Below are positions 13,306 through 62,371 of a stretch of 64,000 nt of DNA, in pieces. Made by a program: the position numbers and the translations under genes. The DNA is taken from contig NZ_JANHDI010000001.1 in NCBI RefSeq assembly GCF_024494595.1, positions 372,001-436,000 on the forward strand, read 5' to 3'. A model generated the notes under the pieces. The model was not told the origin of the DNA. It worked only from the letters and a program-made list of their open reading frames with translations, and searched no databases. The DNA is from Halobellus rarus (lineage in GTDB: Archaea; Halobacteriota; Halobacteria; Halobacteriales; Haloferacaceae). How positions within the stretch are numbered: position 1 is the first letter of the stretch; every line of letters begins with the position of its first letter.

Positions 13306-14561
13306 CTGTACACCTCCCGGGAGCCGCGTTCATCTGCACGCCCTCGACCCCCGAAGGTGGACGTCGTTTCCTGACCTACGGCGGATCCAGTGGCTCTCTC
13401 TTCGGGCTCGGCAGATTCAGTGACTCCCTCGTCGGACTCGGCGGACCCGGAAGCCCGCTCCCCGGCGGCGTCGCCTCCGTCGACCAGCGTCTCGAAATCG
13501 TGTCTCCGGCCGTCGAACCGGACGGCCGTCGAATCGGTTCCGGCGACGATTTCGACGTCGGCAGGCCCCGCGGGAACTGCGCCGCCTTCGACGACGGCGA
13601 GGTGGTCGAGCAGTTCACGGTGTCGGCCGGCGGTCGCCTCCACCGTTCCGGACGGAGTCACCAATGTGACGCCCGCCCCGTCGCGAACGAGCGCGAGACA
13701 CACCGACGCGGCCGCCTCTGCCATCGCGTCGGCTGCGCCGTCGTTTTCCGTCCGCTCACCGCCGTTTTCCGTCCGCTCATCGTCGCCTCTCGCCCGATCC
13801 GTGACGGTTCCGGCGGCGACGGTGACGTGCTCGGGATCGGCGTCGGCGGTGAACTCCCTGACCACGAGGTCGTCGCGCTTCGCCGAGGACTTCCAGTGGA
13901 CGTCTCTGAGCGCGTCGCCCCGAACGTACTCACGCAGGCCGTCGAACTCGTCGCGCCCCGCCGCCGAGCGGGACCGAGACACCGCCCTGAGATCCGCCCG
14001 GACGGCGCCCGACAGCGACCGAACGCGCGGGAAGGCGACCAGCCCGTCACGCGTCTCGACCTCGTGGGTCCGCTCGACGAGTCCGAGGACGTCCGTCGCG
14101 ACGACCGACGCGGGACCGATCTCGTGTTCGCCGCGGCGCTTCGGAGTGACCCCGTAGGCGACGGCGTCGCCGCCGACAGTCGCTTCGATCACCGCCTCCC
14201 GACCGCCAGCGGTCGTCGTTTCGTCGCCGACCGTCGCCGTTTCGCCGTCGGCGTCTCTCGCTTCGTTCCGAACGCCGGTCGGGAGACGGTCTCTGACCGT
14301 AGCTGGGTAGGGATCCGGTGCGTCGAGGACCAATTCGACGACGCCAGTCGTTCCGACCTCGTCTGCGGGCGGGAGGCGTCTCTCGATCGACGGTTTCGGC
14401 GTTCGCCAGACCTGGACGACCGCCGCGACCAGCGCGACCGCGATCGGGAGTACGACGGCGTCGAGCGTCCGCGGCCCGAACGCTGCACCGGCGGCGAGCG
14501 CACCGGTCCCTACGGCGAGGATCGCGTACCCCCGTCGCGTCGGCCTGAGGTTCGGCGTCAT
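13302..14561 (-). CDS. DUF58 family protein
   Basis: A 419-residue DUF58 protein. Two hydrophobic segments lie at the N-terminus (about residues 12-50). The DUF58 signature is FDGLREYVRGDALRDVHWKSSAKRDDLVVREF, followed by a von Willebrand A-like region. The C-terminus is low-complexity and Ser/Glu-rich. It sits between moxR (52 nt upstream) and the transglutaminase gene (overlapping), so the three are one operon. By analogy with other MoxR systems it is probably a partner of the AAA ATPase. Confidence 0.88.
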   Translation of the reverse strand: MTPNLRPTRRGYAILAVGTGALAAGAAFGPRTLDAVVLPIAVALVAAVVQVWRTPKPSIERRLPPADEVGTTGVVELVLDAPDPYPATVRDRLPTGVRNEARDADGETATVGDETTTAGGREAVIEATVGGDAVAYGVTPKRRGEHEIGPASVVATDVLGLVERTHEVETRDGLVAFPRVRSLSGAVRADLRAVSRSRSAAGRDEFDGLREYVRGDALRDVHWKSSAKRDDLVVREFTADADPEHVTVAAGTVTDRARGDDERTENGGERTENDGAADAMAEAAASVCLALVRDGAGVTLVTPSGTVEATAGRHRELLDHLAVVEGGAVPAGPADVEIVAGTDSTAVRFDGRRHDFETLVDGGDAAGERASGSAESDEGVTESAEPEERATGSAVGQETTSTFGGRGRADERGSREVYR

Positions 14562-55765: not shown

Positions 55766-57043
55766 ATGACGATCATCGGCCTCGACGACACCGACTCCCG
55801 CGAGCGTGGGATGTGCACGACGTACCTCGCGACGCGGCTGGCCGAGGCCATCGACGAGGCGGGCGGTGCGGTCGACAGACGGCTCTTGATCCGGCTCAAC
55901 CCCGCGGTCGAACACAAGACCCGCGGCAACGCCGCGCTCGCGATCCACACCGACATCGACTCCGAGCGGGCGCTCGACCTCGCCGTCGCCGAACTGGAAC
56001 CCCTCGCCGAGGTCGACGACCCACGGACGAGTCCCGGCGTCGTCGTCGCCGACGACGAACCCGCGGCAGTTCCGGACGCCGTCGCCGAGTTCACCCGACG
56101 GGCGATCCGAGAGCTCCTCGATCCGACGGACGCGCTCGAACTCCTCGACGAAGCGGGCTACCGCCACCGCGGGTGGGCCGGCGGCCGCGGCCGGATCGGC
56201 GCGCTCGCCGCCGTCGGCTCGTGGGCCGCCCTCGACCAGTGGACCTACGAGCACATCGCCTACCGGGAGTTCGACCGCTGTGGAACGCCCCGAGACGTCG
56301 ACGAGGACTCCGTCTTCGAGGCCGCAGAGTGCGCCTATCCCGACGCGTGGGACACGGTCGACCGCGTCGAGGCGCAGGCCGTCTGCGTCCCGAACGCGCC
56401 GGGGCCGATCATCTACGGGATCCGCGGCGACGACGCCCGCGTCGTCTCGGATCTGGCCGGTCGGATCGAGAGCGAACCCGTCGAGCGAACGGCGACGTTC
56501 CTGACGAACCAGGGTACCGACGTGCACCTGCGAGACGGCGCGCTGGGTGACCTCCGCGACGGCCGCGCCTACCGAGTCGACGGCACCGTCGCGAGCGACC
56601 CGGAGACCCGTCGCGGCGGTCACGTCTTCTTCCAGCTCCGCGACCCGAACGCGGTCGACACCCACATCGACTGCGTCGCCTTCGAACCGACGAAGCGCTT
56701 CCGGGACCGCGTCCGAGCACTCCGTGTCGGCGACGACCTCACCGTCTGCGGCGAGGTGGGAAGCGGCACGCTCAAACTGGAGAAGTTCGCCGTTCGATCG
56801 CTGCGACGGACCGAGGAGACGAACCCGACCTGCCCGGAGTGCGGCCGCTCGATGGCGAGCGCCGGTCGGGATCAGGGCTACCGCTGCCGAGACTGCGGGA
56901 CGTCGCGGTCGAGTCCCGAAACCGTCGACCTCGACCGTGACCTCGAGACCGGCTGGTACGAGGTCCCGCCGTGTGCGCGCCGCCACATCGCGAAACCGCT
57001 GATCCGGGGCGGCTTCGACGCGCCGGTCCATCCCGAGCGGTGA
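55766..57043 (+). CDS. tiaS: tRNA(Ile2) 2-agmatinylcytidine synthetase TiaS
   Basis: Attaches agmatine to C34 of tRNA-Ile2 with ATP, so that the anticodon reads AUA only. The 425-residue protein begins MTIIGLDDTDSRERGMCTTYLA. It has GWAGGRGRIGALAAVGSW, an OB-like domain (YRVDGTVASDPETRRGGHVFF) and a C-terminal zinc ribbon (CPECGRSMASAGRDQGYRCRDCG). The ATG at 55766 is preferred because it starts the catalytic domain. The agmatine source pdaD is 23 kb away in this window. Confidence 0.95.
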   Translation: MTIIGLDDTDSRERGMCTTYLATRLAEAIDEAGGAVDRRLLIRLNPAVEHKTRGNAALAIHTDIDSERALDLAVAELEPLAEVDDPRTSPGVVVADDEPAAVPDAVAEFTRRAIRELLDPTDALELLDEAGYRHRGWAGGRGRIGALAAVGSWAALDQWTYEHIAYREFDRCGTPRDVDEDSVFEAAECAYPDAWDTVDRVEAQAVCVPNAPGPIIYGIRGDDARVVSDLAGRIESEPVERTATFLTNQGTDVHLRDGALGDLRDGRAYRVDGTVASDPETRRGGHVFFQLRDPNAVDTHIDCVAFEPTKRFRDRVRALRVGDDLTVCGEVGSGTLKLEKFAVRSLRRTEETNPTCPECGRSMASAGRDQGYRCRDCGTSRSSPETVDLDRDLETGWYEVPPCARRHIAKPLIRGGFDAPVHPER

Positions 57044-57126
57044 GTCACTCAGACTCCGATCTCCTGATCTCGGCGCGGTGAGTCGATGAGAGTTCCGATC
57101 TCCTGATCCCGGATCGGTGAGTCGAT
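57038..57126. repeat. 38-bp imperfect tandem repeat after tiaS
   Basis: CGGTGAGTC starts at 57038, 57076 and 57115, giving a 38-39-bp period of a bit over two copies. Each of the first two copies is followed by CCGATCTCCTGATC. The first copy includes the last codon and stop of tiaS (CGG TGA). It lies between convergent genes and is non-coding, so it probably arose by slippage or unequal exchange. Confidence 0.65.
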
Positions 57127-57151
57127 CAGTGGCGTGCGGGGTCCCGCAGTC

Positions 57152-57604
57152 TCACTCCTCGACCACCAGAATCTCCGTGTTCGCCCGGCGGTCGACGTAC
57201 TGGCTCCCGGACGGCGGCTTCACGTCGACGACGAGCGTTCCGGTCTCCTGATTCGCCCGGGTGTCGGGATCGACGGTGACGCTCGCGACCCCGTTCGCGT
57301 CCGATTTCGCGGTCACCACGCCGTCCATCTCGGCGCTGCCGTCCTTGACGACCACCGTCGCGCCCTCGACGCCGTCGCCGTCGTCGTCGACCACGACGAG
57401 TTCGAGTTCCTGCTCGCCGGGCTCCACCACGTCGGGTGTGGGACGAACGTCGAGCTCGGAGACGGCGAGTCCCTGCACCCCCGAGAGCATATTCAGCATC
57501 ACGCTCATCGTGGCGACGCCGACCACGAGGGCGATCACGAGTCTGATCGGCAGTCCTTCGATCGCGCGGTCGTCGCCGGCGAACCGTCGGAGTTCGTCGA
57601 ACAT
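57152..57604 (-). CDS. Membrane-anchored protein with Ig-like domain
   Basis: A 150-residue protein not assigned to a function. The N-terminus FDELRRFAGDDRAIEGLPIRLVIALVVGVATMSVMLNML is a charged leader and one hydrophobic helix, somewhat like a class III signal peptide or pilin. The rest looks like a carboxypeptidase-regulatory/Ig-like beta domain (VVVDDDGDGVEGATVVVKDGSA). It probably sits on the outer face of the membrane. Divergent from the HerA-like gene with 75 bp. Confidence 0.7.
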   Translation of the reverse strand: MFDELRRFAGDDRAIEGLPIRLVIALVVGVATMSVMLNMLSGVQGLAVSELDVRPTPDVVEPGEQELELVVVDDDGDGVEGATVVVKDGSAEMDGVVTAKSDANGVASVTVDPDTRANQETGTLVVDVKPPSGSQYVDRRANTEILVVEE

Positions 57605-57679
57605 ACCGGCCGTGGTCCCGTCCCCGCATATAAACGCTCGCCCGAGGGTTCAAGTCGGGGAACGGGACCACTCCTGCCG

Positions 57680-58828
57680 ATGCACACCGAAGTCCTCGGC
57701 CGATCCGACGACGGAACGAGCGCGGCCGCCGAAACGAGTGCCGACCGCGTCGCAGTCGGGGCCGACGCGGCGGCCTTCGCCGGCACGCTCGGCCACCACC
57801 GCGCCCGGGACGGGAGTCGCGGCGCCCCCGTGGCGATCGACTTCGACCGCCCGCACGCCGCGCTCGTGGTCGGCAAGCGCGGCTACGGGAAGTCCTACAC
57901 GCTCGGCGTCCTGGTCGAGGAGGCGACGCGGACGCCGGGCGTCGCGCCCGTCGTGATCGACCCGATGGGCGTCTTTCGGGGACTTGCGGCCGACGCCGCG
58001 GGCGATCTCGTCCCGGCGCGCGTGATCGACGATCCGACGATCCGCGCCGACGCCATCCCGCCGGCGCGGTGGCCCGCGCTCGTCGGGACCGATCCCGACC
58101 GTCCCGTCGGCGCGCTCGTCTGGCACGCCGCAGAGACGGCCCCGACGCTCGACGGGATGCGCGAGACCGTCGCCGACTCCGACGCCGGCGGCGACGTCCG
58201 GCGCGCGGCAGCCAACCGACTCCGCCGGGCTGCGGAATGGAACGTTTTCGACCCGGCGGGCCCCGACGCCCGCGCGCTGGCCGACGGCGCGGCGACCGTT
58301 CTCGACTGTTCCGGTCTCGACGACGCGCCGTCGAACGCCGTCGCTGCTGGCGTCGCGGCCGCGCTGTACGACGCTCGCCTCGGCCGACCCTCGACTGGGG
58401 AGACCGACACACCGGGCATCGACCGGCTGCCGTGGCTCTTTATCGACGAGGCGCACGTCTTCTTCCAGGGCGTCGCGAGCGCGTCGCTCCGGGCGATCCT
58501 CACCCGGGGCCGTGCGCCCGGCGTCTCGCTCGTCGCCGCGACGCAGCGTCCGAGCGCGCTTCCCGAGGTCGCCGTTTCGCAGTCGGATCTCCGCGTCGTC
58601 CACCGTTTGACCGCCGGCTCCGACGTCCGCGCGCTCGCCGCTGCCGACCCGTCGTACCTCGACGCCGACCTCGCCGAGTCGATGCCGACGGCCCCCGGCG
58701 AGGCGCTCGTCGTCGACGACACTGCGGAGGCGACCCGGACAGTCGCCGTTCGGACGCGAGACACGCCGCACGGCGGATCGAGCCCGCGTGCCTCTGCTGC
58801 GGCACGCGCGATCGAAACTGCTGAGTGA
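57680..58828 (+). CDS. HerA-like P-loop ATPase, 382 aa
   Basis: An FtsK/HerA-family ATPase. Walker A is VGKRGYGKSYTL; Walker B is LPWLFIDEAHVFF; the sensor ATQRPSALP and the arginine-finger region HRLTAGSDVRALAAADP follow. The N-terminus has a short HAS-barrel-like stretch but no NurA nuclease is adjacent, so it is not the classical end-resection pair. It could move DNA or act as an orphan ATPase. Its 3' end is 21 nt from the crcB pair. Confidence 0.8.
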   Translation: MHTEVLGRSDDGTSAAAETSADRVAVGADAAAFAGTLGHHRARDGSRGAPVAIDFDRPHAALVVGKRGYGKSYTLGVLVEEATRTPGVAPVVIDPMGVFRGLAADAAGDLVPARVIDDPTIRADAIPPARWPALVGTDPDRPVGALVWHAAETAPTLDGMRETVADSDAGGDVRRAAANRLRRAAEWNVFDPAGPDARALADGAATVLDCSGLDDAPSNAVAAGVAAALYDARLGRPSTGETDTPGIDRLPWLFIDEAHVFFQGVASASLRAILTRGRAPGVSLVAATQRPSALPEVAVSQSDLRVVHRLTAGSDVRALAAADPSYLDADLAESMPTAPGEALVVDDTAEATRTVAVRTRDTPHGGSSPRASAAARAIETAE

Positions 58829-58849
58829 ACGCCCGCGGGAGTGTCGGCG

Positions 58850-59191
58850 ATGGCAGACCGTCTGGTCCCGGTGCTCGTCGCGCTCGGCGGATTCCTGGGA
58901 GCGACGTCGCGGTATCTCCTCGGGACGGTCGTCGCCGGATCCGAGGGGACGCTCCTCGCCAACGTCCTCGGGAGTTTCGTGTTGGCACTCGCAATCGGTG
59001 TCGTTCGGTCGACTCGGCTCCGCTTCTTCCTGATGACCGGGCTCCTCTCCTCGTTCACGACCTACAGCACCTTCGCCGCCGAGACGGCTTCGCTCGGACC
59101 GGCACTCGGAGCCGCGAACGTCGCCGCCAACTACGCGCTCGGGTTCGCCGCCGCGTTCGTCGGACTGGTGGCCGGGAGGCGGTGGACGTGA
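58850..59191 (+). CDS. crcB: Fluoride channel subunit CrcB1
   Basis: A 113-residue four-helix membrane protein of the Fluc/CrcB family that exports fluoride. It has GGFLGATSRYLLG, ANVLGSFVLALAIG and the pore motif GLLSSFTTYSTFAAE. The ATG at 58850 was chosen; a GTG three codons earlier is possible. It overlaps the second crcB by 4 nt (GTGA), so it probably forms a hetero-dimer with it. Confidence 0.92.
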   Translation: MADRLVPVLVALGGFLGATSRYLLGTVVAGSEGTLLANVLGSFVLALAIGVVRSTRLRFFLMTGLLSSFTTYSTFAAETASLGPALGAANVAANYALGFAAAFVGLVAGRRWT

Positions 59192-59565
59192 CGGGGAGTT
59201 TCGCGGTCCTCGTCGGATCGCTTCCGCTTCCACTCCTTGTCGGTCTCGGCGGCGCGCTCGGCGCGCTCGGTCGCTACGCGGCCGACGCGGCGCTCGGCGG
59301 CGGTCGACGGAGCACCGTCGCCGTCAACGTCATCGGGAGCGTCGCGCTCGGCGCGCTCGTCGCCTCGTCGCCGTCTGACGCGACGCTCGCGCTCGCTGGA
59401 ACCGGCTTCTGTGGTGCGTTCACGACGTTCTCGTCGTTCGCCGTGAACGTCGTCCGGGCGGCCGACACGGGGGACTACCGACTCGCCGCCGCCGACGCCC
59501 TCGGCACGCTCGCGACGGCGCTCCTCGGCGTCGGGATCGGCTGGTGGCTCGCAGGGTTTTGGTAG
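59188..59565 (+). CDS. crcB: Fluoride channel subunit CrcB2
   Basis: The 125-residue partner of CrcB1, starting at a GTG that overlaps the upstream stop. It has GGALGALGRYAADA, VNVIGSVALG and the pore motif GFCGAFTTFSSFAVN. In archaea and many bacteria crcB genes come as such pairs with opposite membrane topology. Ends with a Trp-rich helix GVGIGWWLAGFW. Confidence 0.92.
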   Translation: MTGSFAVLVGSLPLPLLVGLGGALGALGRYAADAALGGGRRSTVAVNVIGSVALGALVASSPSDATLALAGTGFCGAFTTFSSFAVNVVRAADTGDYRLAAADALGTLATALLGVGIGWWLAGFW

Positions 59566-59618
59566 TTCGACGGGGTCGCTCGGCGACGAGACGCCTCGCT
59601 GGAGGTCGAAAATCAACG

Positions 59619-59780
59619 CGCCCGCGGCGGGATTTGAACCCCGTCCAGACGTTCCTGCTCGCTCACTGCGTTCGCTGTGCGGGCGTGCGACTGCTGGTGT
59701 TCAAATCCCGCGTTCGTCGCACACCGATATCACGAGTGAGTCGCGGAGATGAAACTCCGCGACGCGTGAAATCGAAGAAG
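59619..59780 (+). repeat. 162-bp repeat unit A
   Basis: The first copy of a 162-bp unit repeated at 59914-60075 with 10 differences (about 94% identity). It begins with a tRNA-Asp 3' fragment in minus orientation (acceptor strand plus T arm, GCGGGATTTGAACCCC). It contains the dispersed 20-nt repeat, an inverted copy of the T-arm sequence (GTTCAAATCCCGC), a 9-bp hairpin GTCGCGGAG/CTCCGCGAC, and ends GAAATCGAAGAAG directly before the next tRNA fragment. Non-coding. Confidence 0.75.
59658..59677 (+). repeat. Dispersed 20-nt repeat, copy 2
   Basis: CTCGCTCACTGCGTTCGCTG, identical to 48937-48956 and 59953-59972, here inside repeat unit A. Confidence 0.6.
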
Positions 59781-59913
59781 CGCCCGAGGCGGGATTTGAA
59801 CCCCGGTCGTCCCGCTTCGCTCCACTCCCTGGTTCAAATCCCTTGGAGTCGTTTTGCCGACGCTGGACTCACTCGTCGCTTCGCTCCTCGTTCGTATTCA
59901 CGTCGGCAAAAAG
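59781..59913 (+). repeat. 133-bp repeat unit B
   Basis: Starts with the same tRNA-Asp 3' fragment (CGCCCGAGGCGGGATTTGAACCCC) and carries GGTTCAAATCCC in opposite orientation further on, a 12-bp inverted repeat of the T arm. The middle is different from unit A (CGTCCCGCTTCGCTCCACTCCC, TTGCCGACGCTGGACTCACTCGTCG). Sits between the two A copies. Non-coding. Confidence 0.7.
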
Positions 59914-60075
59914 CGCCCGAGGCGGGATTTGAACCCTGCCCAGACGTTCCTGCTCGCTCACTGCGTTCGCTGCGCGGGCCTGCGACTGCTGGTGTTCAAA
60001 TCTCGCGTTCGTCGCACACCGATTTCACGAGTGGGTCGCGGAGATAAAACTCCGCGACGTGTGAAATCGAAGAAG
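59914..60075 (+). repeat. 162-bp repeat unit A'
   Basis: The second copy of unit A, ending exactly where the intact tRNA-Asp gene begins (in plus coordinates its 3' end). It carries the tRNA 3' fragment, the dispersed repeat, the reversed T arm with one mismatch (GTTCAAATCTCGC) and the hairpin GTCGCGGAG/CTCCGCGAC. Confidence 0.75.
59953..59972 (+). repeat. Dispersed 20-nt repeat, copy 3
   Basis: CTCGCTCACTGCGTTCGCTG, identical to the copies at 48937 and 59658, inside unit A'. Confidence 0.6.
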
Positions 60076-60148
60076 CGCCCGAGGCGGGATTTGAACCCGC
60101 GTCACGACCGTGACAGGGTCGTATGATGGGCCACTACACCACCCGGGC
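60076..60148 (-). tRNA. tRNA-Asp, anticodon GTC (copy 2)
   Basis: A 73-nt cloverleaf. The acceptor GCCCGGG pairs with CTCGGGC (one G-T), discriminator G. The anticodon arm CGACC-CTGTCAC-GGTCG holds GTC in the loop. The T arm is GCGGG-TTCAAAT-CCCGC. No intron, no encoded CCA. It is identical to the upstream copy at 60169 and its 3' end faces the fragment array. Confidence 0.96.
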
Positions 60149-60168
60149 ACACATCGGAGCAAAACCAA

Positions 60169-60241
60169 CGCCCGAGGCGGGATTTGAACCCGCGTCACGA
60201 CCGTGACAGGGTCGTATGATGGGCCACTACACCACCCGGGC
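60169..60241 (-). tRNA. tRNA-Asp, anticodon GTC (copy 1)
   Basis: Identical to the copy at 60076-60148, 20 bp further upstream in the transcription direction. Both are probably made from one promoter; TCTTAATTAGAC on the minus strand (about 60268-60280) is a likely TATA element. Confidence 0.96.
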
Positions 60242-60478
60242 TTGCTCCACTTCCCCGTAACCCGGTAGTCTAATTAAGACTTATCATCTGACGGCGGCGT
60301 GGGAGCGATCACCGAAGACCGATCGCAACGTCCCGCGACGGTCGACGTAGGTATCACGGTACTCGGCCACGTCGACTGACCGTCCGGCAGTCGCGTCGGC
60401 GTCGTGTCGACGCGACAGAAAGATCGGCCGAAGAAGTCGTTTCGGAACCCGATGGCTGTCGAGAGTCGAGGACTCCGC
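60242..60478. other. Spacer between tRNA-Asp and atpD
   Basis: About 237 bp without a gene. It holds the tRNA promoter candidate near 60268-60280. The rest, near the 3' end of atpD, shows no ORF or repeat of note. Confidence 0.45.
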
Positions 60479-61162
60479 TCAGTCGTCCGCGGGAGCGGCG
60501 GCGGCCGCTTCCTCTGCCTCTCGCTCTTCTTTCTCCTCTTTCTCTTTCTTGTTCTTGATCTTCTTCAGGCGGAATATCTCCTCGCGCTCCTGCTCTTCGA
60601 GCTTCTGCTCGATGTACTCCTTGTTCTCGTTGAGTTCGGGGAGCAGTTTGAATTCGAGGGCGTTCACCCGACGCTTGGTCGTCTCGATCTCTTTGAGCAT
60701 CTTCTTCATCGCCGTCTCGACCTCCGCGGCGAGGATGATCGTTTCGAGGAGTTCCTCGTAGGCGTCGGCGGCTTCGTCGATCCGCGCCGAAGAGCCGAGC
60801 AGCCCGTACCCGCGCTGATCGAGGCTCTTTCTGACGCGCGAGGACTCGATCTGCGGGACGACGACGCCCATAATGTTCTTCGACTGGGTCGTGATCTCGG
60901 GGTGCTCTTTGAGCGCCGCGGCGGCCCCGCGGACGGCGACGTCGCCCTCCATCGCCCGCGCCATATTGATCTTCTTCTGGGCGGTCTCGTAGTTCCCGTC
61001 AAGCTCCGAGCGGACGTCCTGTGCCTGATCCAGGATGTCCATAAACTCCATAATGAGGCCGTCGCGCTTCTGTTCGAGCGTGTCGTGGCCCCGCTCGGAC
61101 AGTTCGATGCGATCCTCGATCGCCATCAGGTTCTTGCGGGTCGGTTTGACGTCTTTGGCCAT
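60479..61162 (-). CDS. atpD: A-type ATP synthase subunit D
   Basis: Central-stalk subunit of the archaeal ATP synthase, 227 residues. The family start is [39 protein letters not shown] long coiled coil follows, ending in a Lys/Glu-rich helix ([18 protein letters not shown]) and a haloarchaeal Ala/Asp tail. The other atp genes are outside the window. 36 nt upstream is the end of brp/blh on the same strand. Confidence 0.95.
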
Positions 61163-61198
61163 CTTGTAGGAGGCTAGTGAACCGAGCGTGTTAACCTT

Positions 61199-62371
61199 TT
61201 ACTGTTCGTCCACGAGACGGGCGAGACCGGCGTTCTCCGCCCAGTCCATCCACGTCACGATCGCGACGTGCGGGAGCGTCAGAACGGAAATAAAAACCAG
61301 ATAGAGCGCCGCGGCCGCCCGGAGATCCGTCTGCGTCCCGACCGCCACGTCGGCCGCGACGACGCCTCCCGGGAGTGCGACGTCGCCCGCAACTGCGATA
61401 GCCAGAAGCAGCAGGACGGCGACGGCCGTCAGCGGGAGCGCGTCGCGTCCCACCCGCATCAGTGCCGGGACGGGTCCTCTCTCGGCGAACGTCGTCCGGG
61501 CGGTCGGATCGACCGCGATCAGCCTGGCGATGTGACGGAGCGAGTGCCACACGCAGAAGTACACGCCGACGGCGAAGAGCGGCGGGACGAGGAGGAAGAA
61601 GCCCCACAGGAGGGCCGTCTCGCCCGCATCGAGGTACCAGACGCGGCCCCCGCTTCGCCGCCGCCCCGCGAGCAGCGTCGCGACGGTCAGCAGTGCGAAC
61701 CCGCCGCCCAGCGTTCCTCGAACCGTCGGCGACAGGAGCCACGCGGCGTCCAGTTCGGAACCGAACAGCGCGACCCACGCCCCGACGACGACCCGGTACT
61801 CCGCCGGGTGGGCCAGAAGCGGAACCAGCATCGGGAGTCCACCCCGCACGAGCAACGTTCCGACCCGGACGCCGCGGCCGTCGAGGTGGCTCGCGCCGAT
61901 CGCATCGAGCGCGTAGACGTCGCCCTGCCCCCAGTGGAACCACGTCAGTGCCACGAACAGCGCGGCCGACGCGACCGGGAGGGCCCACCACAGGAGTCCG
62001 TAGGCGCTCCCGAGAACGAGATACAGGACCCCGACCGCGAGGATCGACGCAGCCGTGGGTCGACGGCCGGCGGCCCGCGCCGGTGCCAGGTGGTCGACCG
62101 CGCCGTGCGGCAGGCCGAAGACCGCCAGGCTCACCGCCAGCGGGCCGTATCGGAGCCACCGCGGGAGCGTCTGCGATCCGGTGAACGCGGTCGCGATCGC
62201 CCAGACAAGCGTGATCCCCCCGATGACGACCCAGGCCGGCCGGACGCCGACGCGCCGCATCACTGACGCGGCGATCGAGCCGCGGCTCCCCGGGGTTTCG
62301 ACGGCGCGTGACGGCATCGACTCGCCGCGTCCGACCGACCCGTTCTCGCCGTGTCCGGTCGGCTCGTCCAT
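61199..62371 (-). CDS. blh: Beta-carotene 15,15'-dioxygenase, Brp/Blh family
   Basis: Cleaves beta-carotene to retinal, the opsin chromophore. The 390-residue membrane protein has about nine helices. Conserved His residues in FGLPHGAVDH, TWFHWGQGD, CVWHSLRH and LPHVAIVTWMD probably bind iron. The N-terminal 40 residues are polar. It follows the cyclase by only 4 nt, so both are one operon. A decayed opsin lies upstream of that operon. Confidence 0.93.
   Translation of the reverse strand: MDEPTGHGENGSVGRGESMPSRAVETPGSRGSIAASVMRRVGVRPAWVVIGGITLVWAIATAFTGSQTLPRWLRYGPLAVSLAVFGLPHGAVDHLAPARAAGRRPTAASILAVGVLYLVLGSAYGLLWWALPVASAALFVALTWFHWGQGDVYALDAIGASHLDGRGVRVGTLLVRGGLPMLVPLLAHPAEYRVVVGAWVALFGSELDAAWLLSPTVRGTLGGGFALLTVATLLAGRRRSGGRVWYLDAGETALLWGFFLLVPPLFAVGVYFCVWHSLRHIARLIAVDPTARTTFAERGPVPALMRVGRDALPLTAVAVLLLLAIAVAGDVALPGGVVAADVAVGTQTDLRAAAALYLVFISVLTLPHVAIVTWMDWAENAGLARLVDEQ

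Follow-up and report, generated by a model that had tools for sequence, protein, structure and literature searches.

The tRNA-Asp array described here is one case of a general haloarchaeal feature. Behind tRNA genes stand discrete units, each of which ends in a copy of the 3' end of the tRNA that it follows. The units are precisely present or absent among congeners, differ at the end next to the tRNA, decay away from it, share their cores between tRNAs and carry a conserved hairpin. The reading that we favor, at a little below an even chance, takes the array as gene-less cassettes stacked one after another at the T-loop/3' end of the tRNA gene by a site-specific recombinase, whose existence we infer from the arrangement of the units.

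The array lies in a 64,000-nucleotide stretch of DNA, analyzed at its full length (the window). The tRNA 3' end from G53 to N73 (21 bases; here the tail, D) reads CGCCCGAGGCGGGATTTGAAC on the plus strand. Along the minus strand, downstream of the second of two identical tRNA-Asp(GTC) genes, the order is tRNA, A', B, A. Read in the sense direction of the tRNA, a unit consists of a hairpin with a T-rich start (h1), then a T-loop copy in inverted orientation together with part of the T-stem (I, present in every unit), a core, and a copy of the tail:

60169-60241, minus strand: intact tRNA-Asp(GTC) gene, first copy (ARAGORN and Rfam)
about 60075-60148, minus strand: intact tRNA-Asp(GTC) gene, second copy (ARAGORN and Rfam)
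60076-60096, minus strand: source tail D1, G53-N73 of the second tRNA-Asp
59935-60075, minus strand: unit 1 (A', 141 bp, tRNA-proximal), with h1 hairpin at 60007-60075, I at 59994-60006 and core at 59935-59993
59914-59934, minus strand: tail copy D2 (G53-N73), exact match to the tRNA
59802-59913, minus strand: unit 2 (B, 112 bp), with h1 at 59845-59913, I at 59832-59844 and core at 59802-59831
59781-59801, minus strand: tail copy D3, exact match to the tRNA
59640-59780, minus strand: unit 3 (A, 141 bp, near-copy of unit 1), with h1 at 59712-59780, I at 59699-59711 and core at 59640-59698
59619-59639, minus strand: tail copy D4, the most distal and the sole altered copy, with one mismatch to the tRNA
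about 59562-59618, minus strand: h1-like sequence past the last tail copy

All five tail copies reported in a first-pass annotation of this DNA were found, starting at 59619, 59781, 59914, 60076 and 60169, with the spacings of 162, 133 and 162 that it gave, followed by one of 93. The reversed T arm that it placed in each unit (I in the list above) and the two intact tRNA genes were likewise recovered; A and A' are similar as it had claimed, at 93% over 194 bp rather than 94%. Allowing one mismatch, GATTTGAACCC occurs 10 times in the window compared to 0.37 expected, and no shuffle attained 10. The h1 of unit 2 is similar to that of a lone unit behind tRNA-Asp in a congener (G010). The h1-like sequence past D4 probably marks where an older unit, now decayed, began, and an h1 like it comes first behind tRNA-Asp in two other congeners (G002 and G003; L017 and L015). 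We found no Rfam family other than tRNA above threshold for the units, and split or permuted tRNA genes were not supported, the tRNA genes being whole.

The same anatomy was found at other tRNAs and in other genomes. A second instance in the window's own genome (G000) lies behind tRNA-Ser(CGA), and its I and tail match that tRNA-Ser, not tRNA-Asp. A tRNA gene was close by in 28 of 29 related loci drawn from other haloarchaea (Asp, Ser, Gly, Arg, Met and Glu). In a census of nearly all tRNAs of two genomes, taken from fetched regions and chosen without reference to the pattern, 18 of 43 tRNAs in G000 and 12 of 41 in a genome from another family (G092) had I downstream at a distance of up to 450 bp; none had it upstream. 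A strict tail-I-tail pattern (GTTCRAATC N40-70 GATTYGAAC N25-55 GTTCRAATC) was present in 262 of 391 Halobacteria genomes and in 73 of 86 genera. This pattern misses arrays, G000 itself having zero matches at this spacing, and absence in a genome therefore means little. The reversed control pattern had no match in any listed genome. In a phylum-wide draw, all 58 positive genomes were Halobacteria, and none of the 312 genomes from other classes was positive.

Across 84,980 species genomes, a scan with slightly different spacing gave at least 120 stretches, and nearly all of those listed were from Halobacteria; among the matches listed outside this class were four Woesearchaeota loci and three bacterial loci. 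Tail-I-tail arrangements were observed behind tRNA-Gln, tRNA-Met and tRNA-Leu in Woesearchaeota (L049, L084, L122 and L134) and behind tRNA-Ser in an Oligoflexia genome (L080). Carriage by viruses was considered and rejected: 2.9 million IMG/VR viral contigs gave one pattern match (L161), in which the inverted and repeated tails fit poorly (3 and 4 mismatches). In the literature that we searched, with subscription journals mostly outside it and an earlier description therefore possible, we found no account of hairpins or repeats downstream of haloarchaeal tRNAs. The one similar layout known before was that of a peculiar repeat in E. coli.

We parsed 256 units from 332 tRNA genes, a set enriched by pattern searches and not a census, covering tRNAs for 17 amino acids. 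The units are 72-190 bp long (median 101). The tail copy matches the unit's own tRNA exactly in 170 of the 256 and with at most one mismatch in 214; in four genomes, for which nearly all tRNAs were covered, the own tRNA was the best fit for the tail copy in 59 of 62 units. The edges of the copied block are sharp. Immediately upstream of G53, identity to the tRNA drops almost to the chance level, with position 52 slightly higher; the sequences after D1 and after D2 have near-chance identity from position 74 onward. The stem part of I also follows the host, matching its own tRNA at 58% of positions compared to 39% when permuted (z = 14). Some tail copies have one extra base between positions 57 and 58 (gttcaCaatc, gttcaaCatc, gttcgCaatc); these were seen in Thr, Phe, Asp, Val, Leu, Ser and Gly units (L164, L170, L026, L230, L233, L246, L250 and L277).

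When almost every tRNA locus in the congeners G010 and G008 was compared with those of G000, filled and empty sites emerged. At tRNA-Val(TAC), G000 has the tRNA, 83 bp, the tail and CTCGGATTACGCACGG; G008 has the tRNA followed directly by CTCGGATTACGTACGG, and its sequence matches that of G000 on both sides. Precise presence or absence was also found at Arg(TCT), Arg(GCG), Leu(CAG), His and others. The differences between congeners sit at the tRNA-proximal end. At Leu(CAA), for example, the order of units away from the tRNA is [u0] in G000, [u2][u0] in G010 and [u0'][u2][u0] in G008. The first-pass annotation had called for such a comparison of close strains and had suggested, as one of two origins, a small element that uses tRNA ends. 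That suggestion agrees with units that are discrete, precisely present or absent among congeners, and terminated by a copy of the tRNA tail. It had also taken fixed, identical units of conserved structure in distant haloarchaea as a sign against an integration scar; across haloarchaea the structure is conserved and the sequences are not fixed.

Single comparisons between congeners cannot separate gain from loss, and some apparent insertions may be losses. The gradient of decay argues for gain at the proximal end. In 28 of 56 arrays that comprise at least two units, the distal tail had diverged more than the proximal one; the reverse was never seen, and the other 28 were ties (p = 7e-9). This pattern indicates that the newest unit adjoins the tRNA. 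Three parsed arrays start with two identical units.

Cores and h1 behave differently when units from different tRNAs are compared. Among 22,295 pairs of units from tRNAs for different amino acids, the two units shared the core (score ≥0.6) in 313 and h1 in 10, whereas among 1,164 pairs from the same tRNA the numbers were 49 and 45. These counts indicate that h1 and the tail stay with the type of tRNA and that the core, which lies between the inverted T-loop sequences, crosses between tRNAs. Near-identical cores of 49 nt were found behind tRNA-Arg(TCT) and tRNA-Gly(CCC), for example, each with the tail of its own tRNA, and three cores were inverted. We looked in one genus for transfer of whole units between unlike tRNAs; the related complete units found there were at tRNA-Asp and tRNA-Ser(GGA), two tRNAs with tails just two bases apart.

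We propose that a cassette consists of h1, I and a core, and that its insertion would keep the tRNA whole while the former tail (G53-N73) is displaced downstream as a copy. New cassettes would adjoin the tRNA, and older ones would decay farther off. I and the displaced T-loop would form a pair of inverted T-loop sites flanking the core, and recombination at this pair would swap cores between tRNA loci and now and then flip them. The agent would be a site-specific recombinase directed to the T-loop, and a tyrosine recombinase that acts in trans is the likeliest kind. The T-arm, with a 5-bp dyad around a 7-bp loop, has the same shape as the core (att) site of a tyrosine recombinase, and archaeal att sites favor tRNA 3' ends (PMC8371274). 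The extra base at 57/58, taken together with an E. coli tail copy that starts at A58 (see below), hints at the junction. The cassette would probably carry the tail along, and the confinement of h1 lineages to one type of tRNA would follow from this. We found no recombinase linked to the arrays; a general PF00589 search detected integrases in every genome tested, leaving no contrast to test. The rarity of inversions counts against the cassette reading. A cap motif, GARC...GYGA, is found in the tRNA sense and antisense orientations at 145:5 in cores and 178:6 in h1, a bias that exceeds what free inversion would leave.

Much of this could also come about with no dedicated enzyme. Slippage, template switching or microhomology repair between the T-loop and tail repeats would then duplicate, delete, exchange, invert and so reshuffle the modules, and the hairpins would merely stall the fork. 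The 21-bp direct tails could recombine in this way, and repeat-mediated deletion is documented in haloarchaea, including deletions at 22-bp and 43-bp tRNA duplications (PMC3119063). The boundaries of exchange fall on the 9-bp T-loop repeats, the arrays that open with two identical units fit simple duplication, and the rare sharing of h1 across amino acids leans toward tRNAs with more similar tails. By itself, however, such a process leaves unexplained the arrival of new, unrelated units at the tRNA-proximal end, the finding of the anatomy in Halobacteria and not in sister classes, and the strict sense orientation. We regard it as a serious possibility and, on balance, an unlikely one.

The hairpins bear on a different alternative. 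In 33 gap-free sequences with 49-nt cores, 89.7% of the cells in hairpin 2 were paired, and two-sided changes occurred in 107 cells compared to 43 in shuffled data (none of 500 shuffles was as high); this signal was lost when the partner was slid by one to three columns. The inner stem, in 124 cores, was Watson-Crick at 78% of positions compared to 47% when permuted (z = 19.8), with 1.8% G-U. Median folding z was -5.2 for hairpin 2 and -2.1 for h1, and the sense strand folded more stably than the antisense strand (163:58 for hairpin 2 and 175:46 for h1). Hairpin 2 covaries, then, both hairpins are stable and more so on the tRNA sense strand, and the cap motif is bound to that strand. All of this would be expected if h1 and hairpin 2 formed a selected, structured tRNA trailer (a terminator, a processing signal or a small RNA) subject to duplicative birth and death; the RtT repeat is transcribed, and RttR of E. 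coli carries a small-RNA annotation. On the other hand, the sense strand has no excess of G-U pairs (4.1% compared to 5.0%), which are few overall, and gene conversion from arm to arm in a palindrome could also give covariation with few G-U pairs, so that covariation does not by itself prove an RNA. Presence at the same tRNA differs between congeners, and function as an RNA would leave unexplained both the exact copy of the tail, including the acceptor strand, and the sharing of cores between tRNAs. It seems improbable that an RNA-level element of this kind accounts for the units.

The tail copy itself raises the question of target duplication. Casposons target tRNA 3' ends with target duplications, and a Cas1-like enzyme (casposase) or other integrase making staggered cuts at G53 and N73 would leave a 21-bp target site duplication and CRISPR-like growth. 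The fixed 21-bp block with sharp ends, growth at the proximal side with decay at the distal side, and a tail that is always that of the host tRNA are what such insertion would give; a tail carried by the cassette would look identical. An element free to enter any tRNA would not be expected to have an h1 nearly confined to one tRNA type, though, and no linked gene was seen at the arrays. We consider target-duplicating insertion very unlikely.

Scars of repeated integration of prophages or islands at tRNA-Asp, the other origin that the first-pass annotation had suggested, are scarcely credible here: the tail copies do resemble att sites, and integrase-bearing, prophage-like insertions exist at tRNA-Leu(TAG) and tRNA-Glu(CTC) of G000 (L172, 6630-17643; L301, 14563-19644), but what these duplicate is a longer stretch that starts in the anticodon arm, and not G53-N73, the same hairpin anatomy is uniform across many tRNAs and genera throughout Halobacteria, the 112-141 bp between copies hold no gene remnant, and no integrase gene adjoins the array or lies inside it. 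In five genomes with tRNA coordinates, all 17 exact matches to GATTYGAAC-N22-52-GTTCRAATC lay 36-292 bp downstream of a tRNA on the same strand, and none of the 17 was I-core-tail at the distant right end of a larger element. To the right of the right end of the tRNA-Leu(TAG) insertion are an h1-like sequence and a tail remnant, the insertion probably having landed between the tRNA and a unit already present.

Among known systems, the haloarchaeal units resemble the E. coli tyrT/RtT repeat (RF00391, RttR RNA) in layout. There too, units repeat in tandem after a tRNA gene, and each closes with a copied tRNA 3' end whose first base lies in the T-loop. The E. coli unit ends in AATCCTTCCCCCACCACCA, starting at A58, whereas the haloarchaeal copy starts at G53. 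Each E. coli unit contains an inverted partial copy of the tail (GGGGAAGGAT), as the haloarchaeal units do, and its core holds a hairpin cap (GAGCGCCAGCGAG) with a likeness to the haloarchaeal cores. Unlike the haloarchaeal units, the E. coli repeat is found at tRNA-Tyr only, as seen here, has units of about 178 bp and is annotated as an RNA plus a small ORF. By sequence the haloarchaeal units do not belong to RtT. The RtT covariance model had no match at E ≤ 5 in window positions 57000-62000 and none at E ≤ 1 in three further loci (L170, L163 and L021); it had four in E. coli. We know of no report of mobility or polarized growth for the tyrT/RtT repeat.

Tyrosine-integrase elements at tRNAs use a T-loop sublocation within tRNA genes. 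They are like the units in that the tRNA regains its tail and a copy of it marks the far end, with a direct repeat of the 3' part of the tRNA flanking the insert, but they are kilobases long and carry genes; the haloarchaeal inserts, at 72-190 bp, are too short for a gene and have an inverted T-loop inside. The archaeal families of these elements are reviewed in PMC8371274. The SMR-A and SMR-B elements of Haloquadratum are about 80-110 bp long and gene-free with inverted ends; SMR-A inserted into palindromes, and the mobilization of SMRs is unexplained (PMC3119063). SMRs are thus small, gene-free and inverted at their ends like the units described here, but they make no target duplication and enter mobile elements (PATEs/IS605 for SMR-A), compared to the 21-bp tail copy and tRNA site of the haloarchaeal units.

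In integrons, attC sites are hairpins of variable sequence and conserved fold, cassettes lie between recombination points, and stacks grow at one end. The units share variable-sequence hairpins of conserved fold (a candidate site here) and growth of the stack at one end; integron cassettes carry genes, whereas the haloarchaeal cassettes are gene-less and their sites would be tRNA T-loops. In CRISPR arrays the repeat is copied with each insertion, the newest unit is at the leader and the oldest is the most decayed. A repeat copied per insertion, the newest next to a leader-like tRNA and the oldest most decayed, is a likeness to CRISPR and casposons, but CRISPR spacers are random and foreign and the haloarchaeal inserts are structured, related families.

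A broader form of the cassette reading is possible, if doubtful: a resident enzyme might stack and shuffle hairpin cassettes of ~100 bp at T-loops throughout the class, with position reflecting age, and the E. coli tyrT repeat might be a bacterial outlier of the same system. If true, the tRNA genes of a whole archaeal class would be sites of continuing, ordered insertion in which the tRNA is never broken. Each tRNA would hold a natural ordered series of recombination events and offer a direct way to the enzyme. The decades-old E. coli tyrT/RtT repeat would gain its first functional frame, and hairpin-based recombination sites would have a new candidate beyond integrons.

Several smaller observations concern the surroundings of the array. 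Two adjacent CrcB/Fluc-type genes (PF02537; 58841-59562), which we take to encode fluoride channels, stop just short of the array, and atpD (PF01813; 60479-61162), on the minus strand, lies on its other side. The number of tandem identical tRNA-Asp genes per locus differs within the genus, with two in the window's genome, G006 and G008 and three in G010 (L012, L014 and L021). The cap motif GARCGNAGYGA is also found away from tRNAs, at 14257 and 48941 of the window (minus strand), and it may be a general haloarchaeal hairpin cap. Long ORFs cross the array at 59544-60126 (RRDLNPG..., AGFEP...); they are translated T-arm copies, and ORFs of this kind are probably a source of spurious haloarchaeal proteins.
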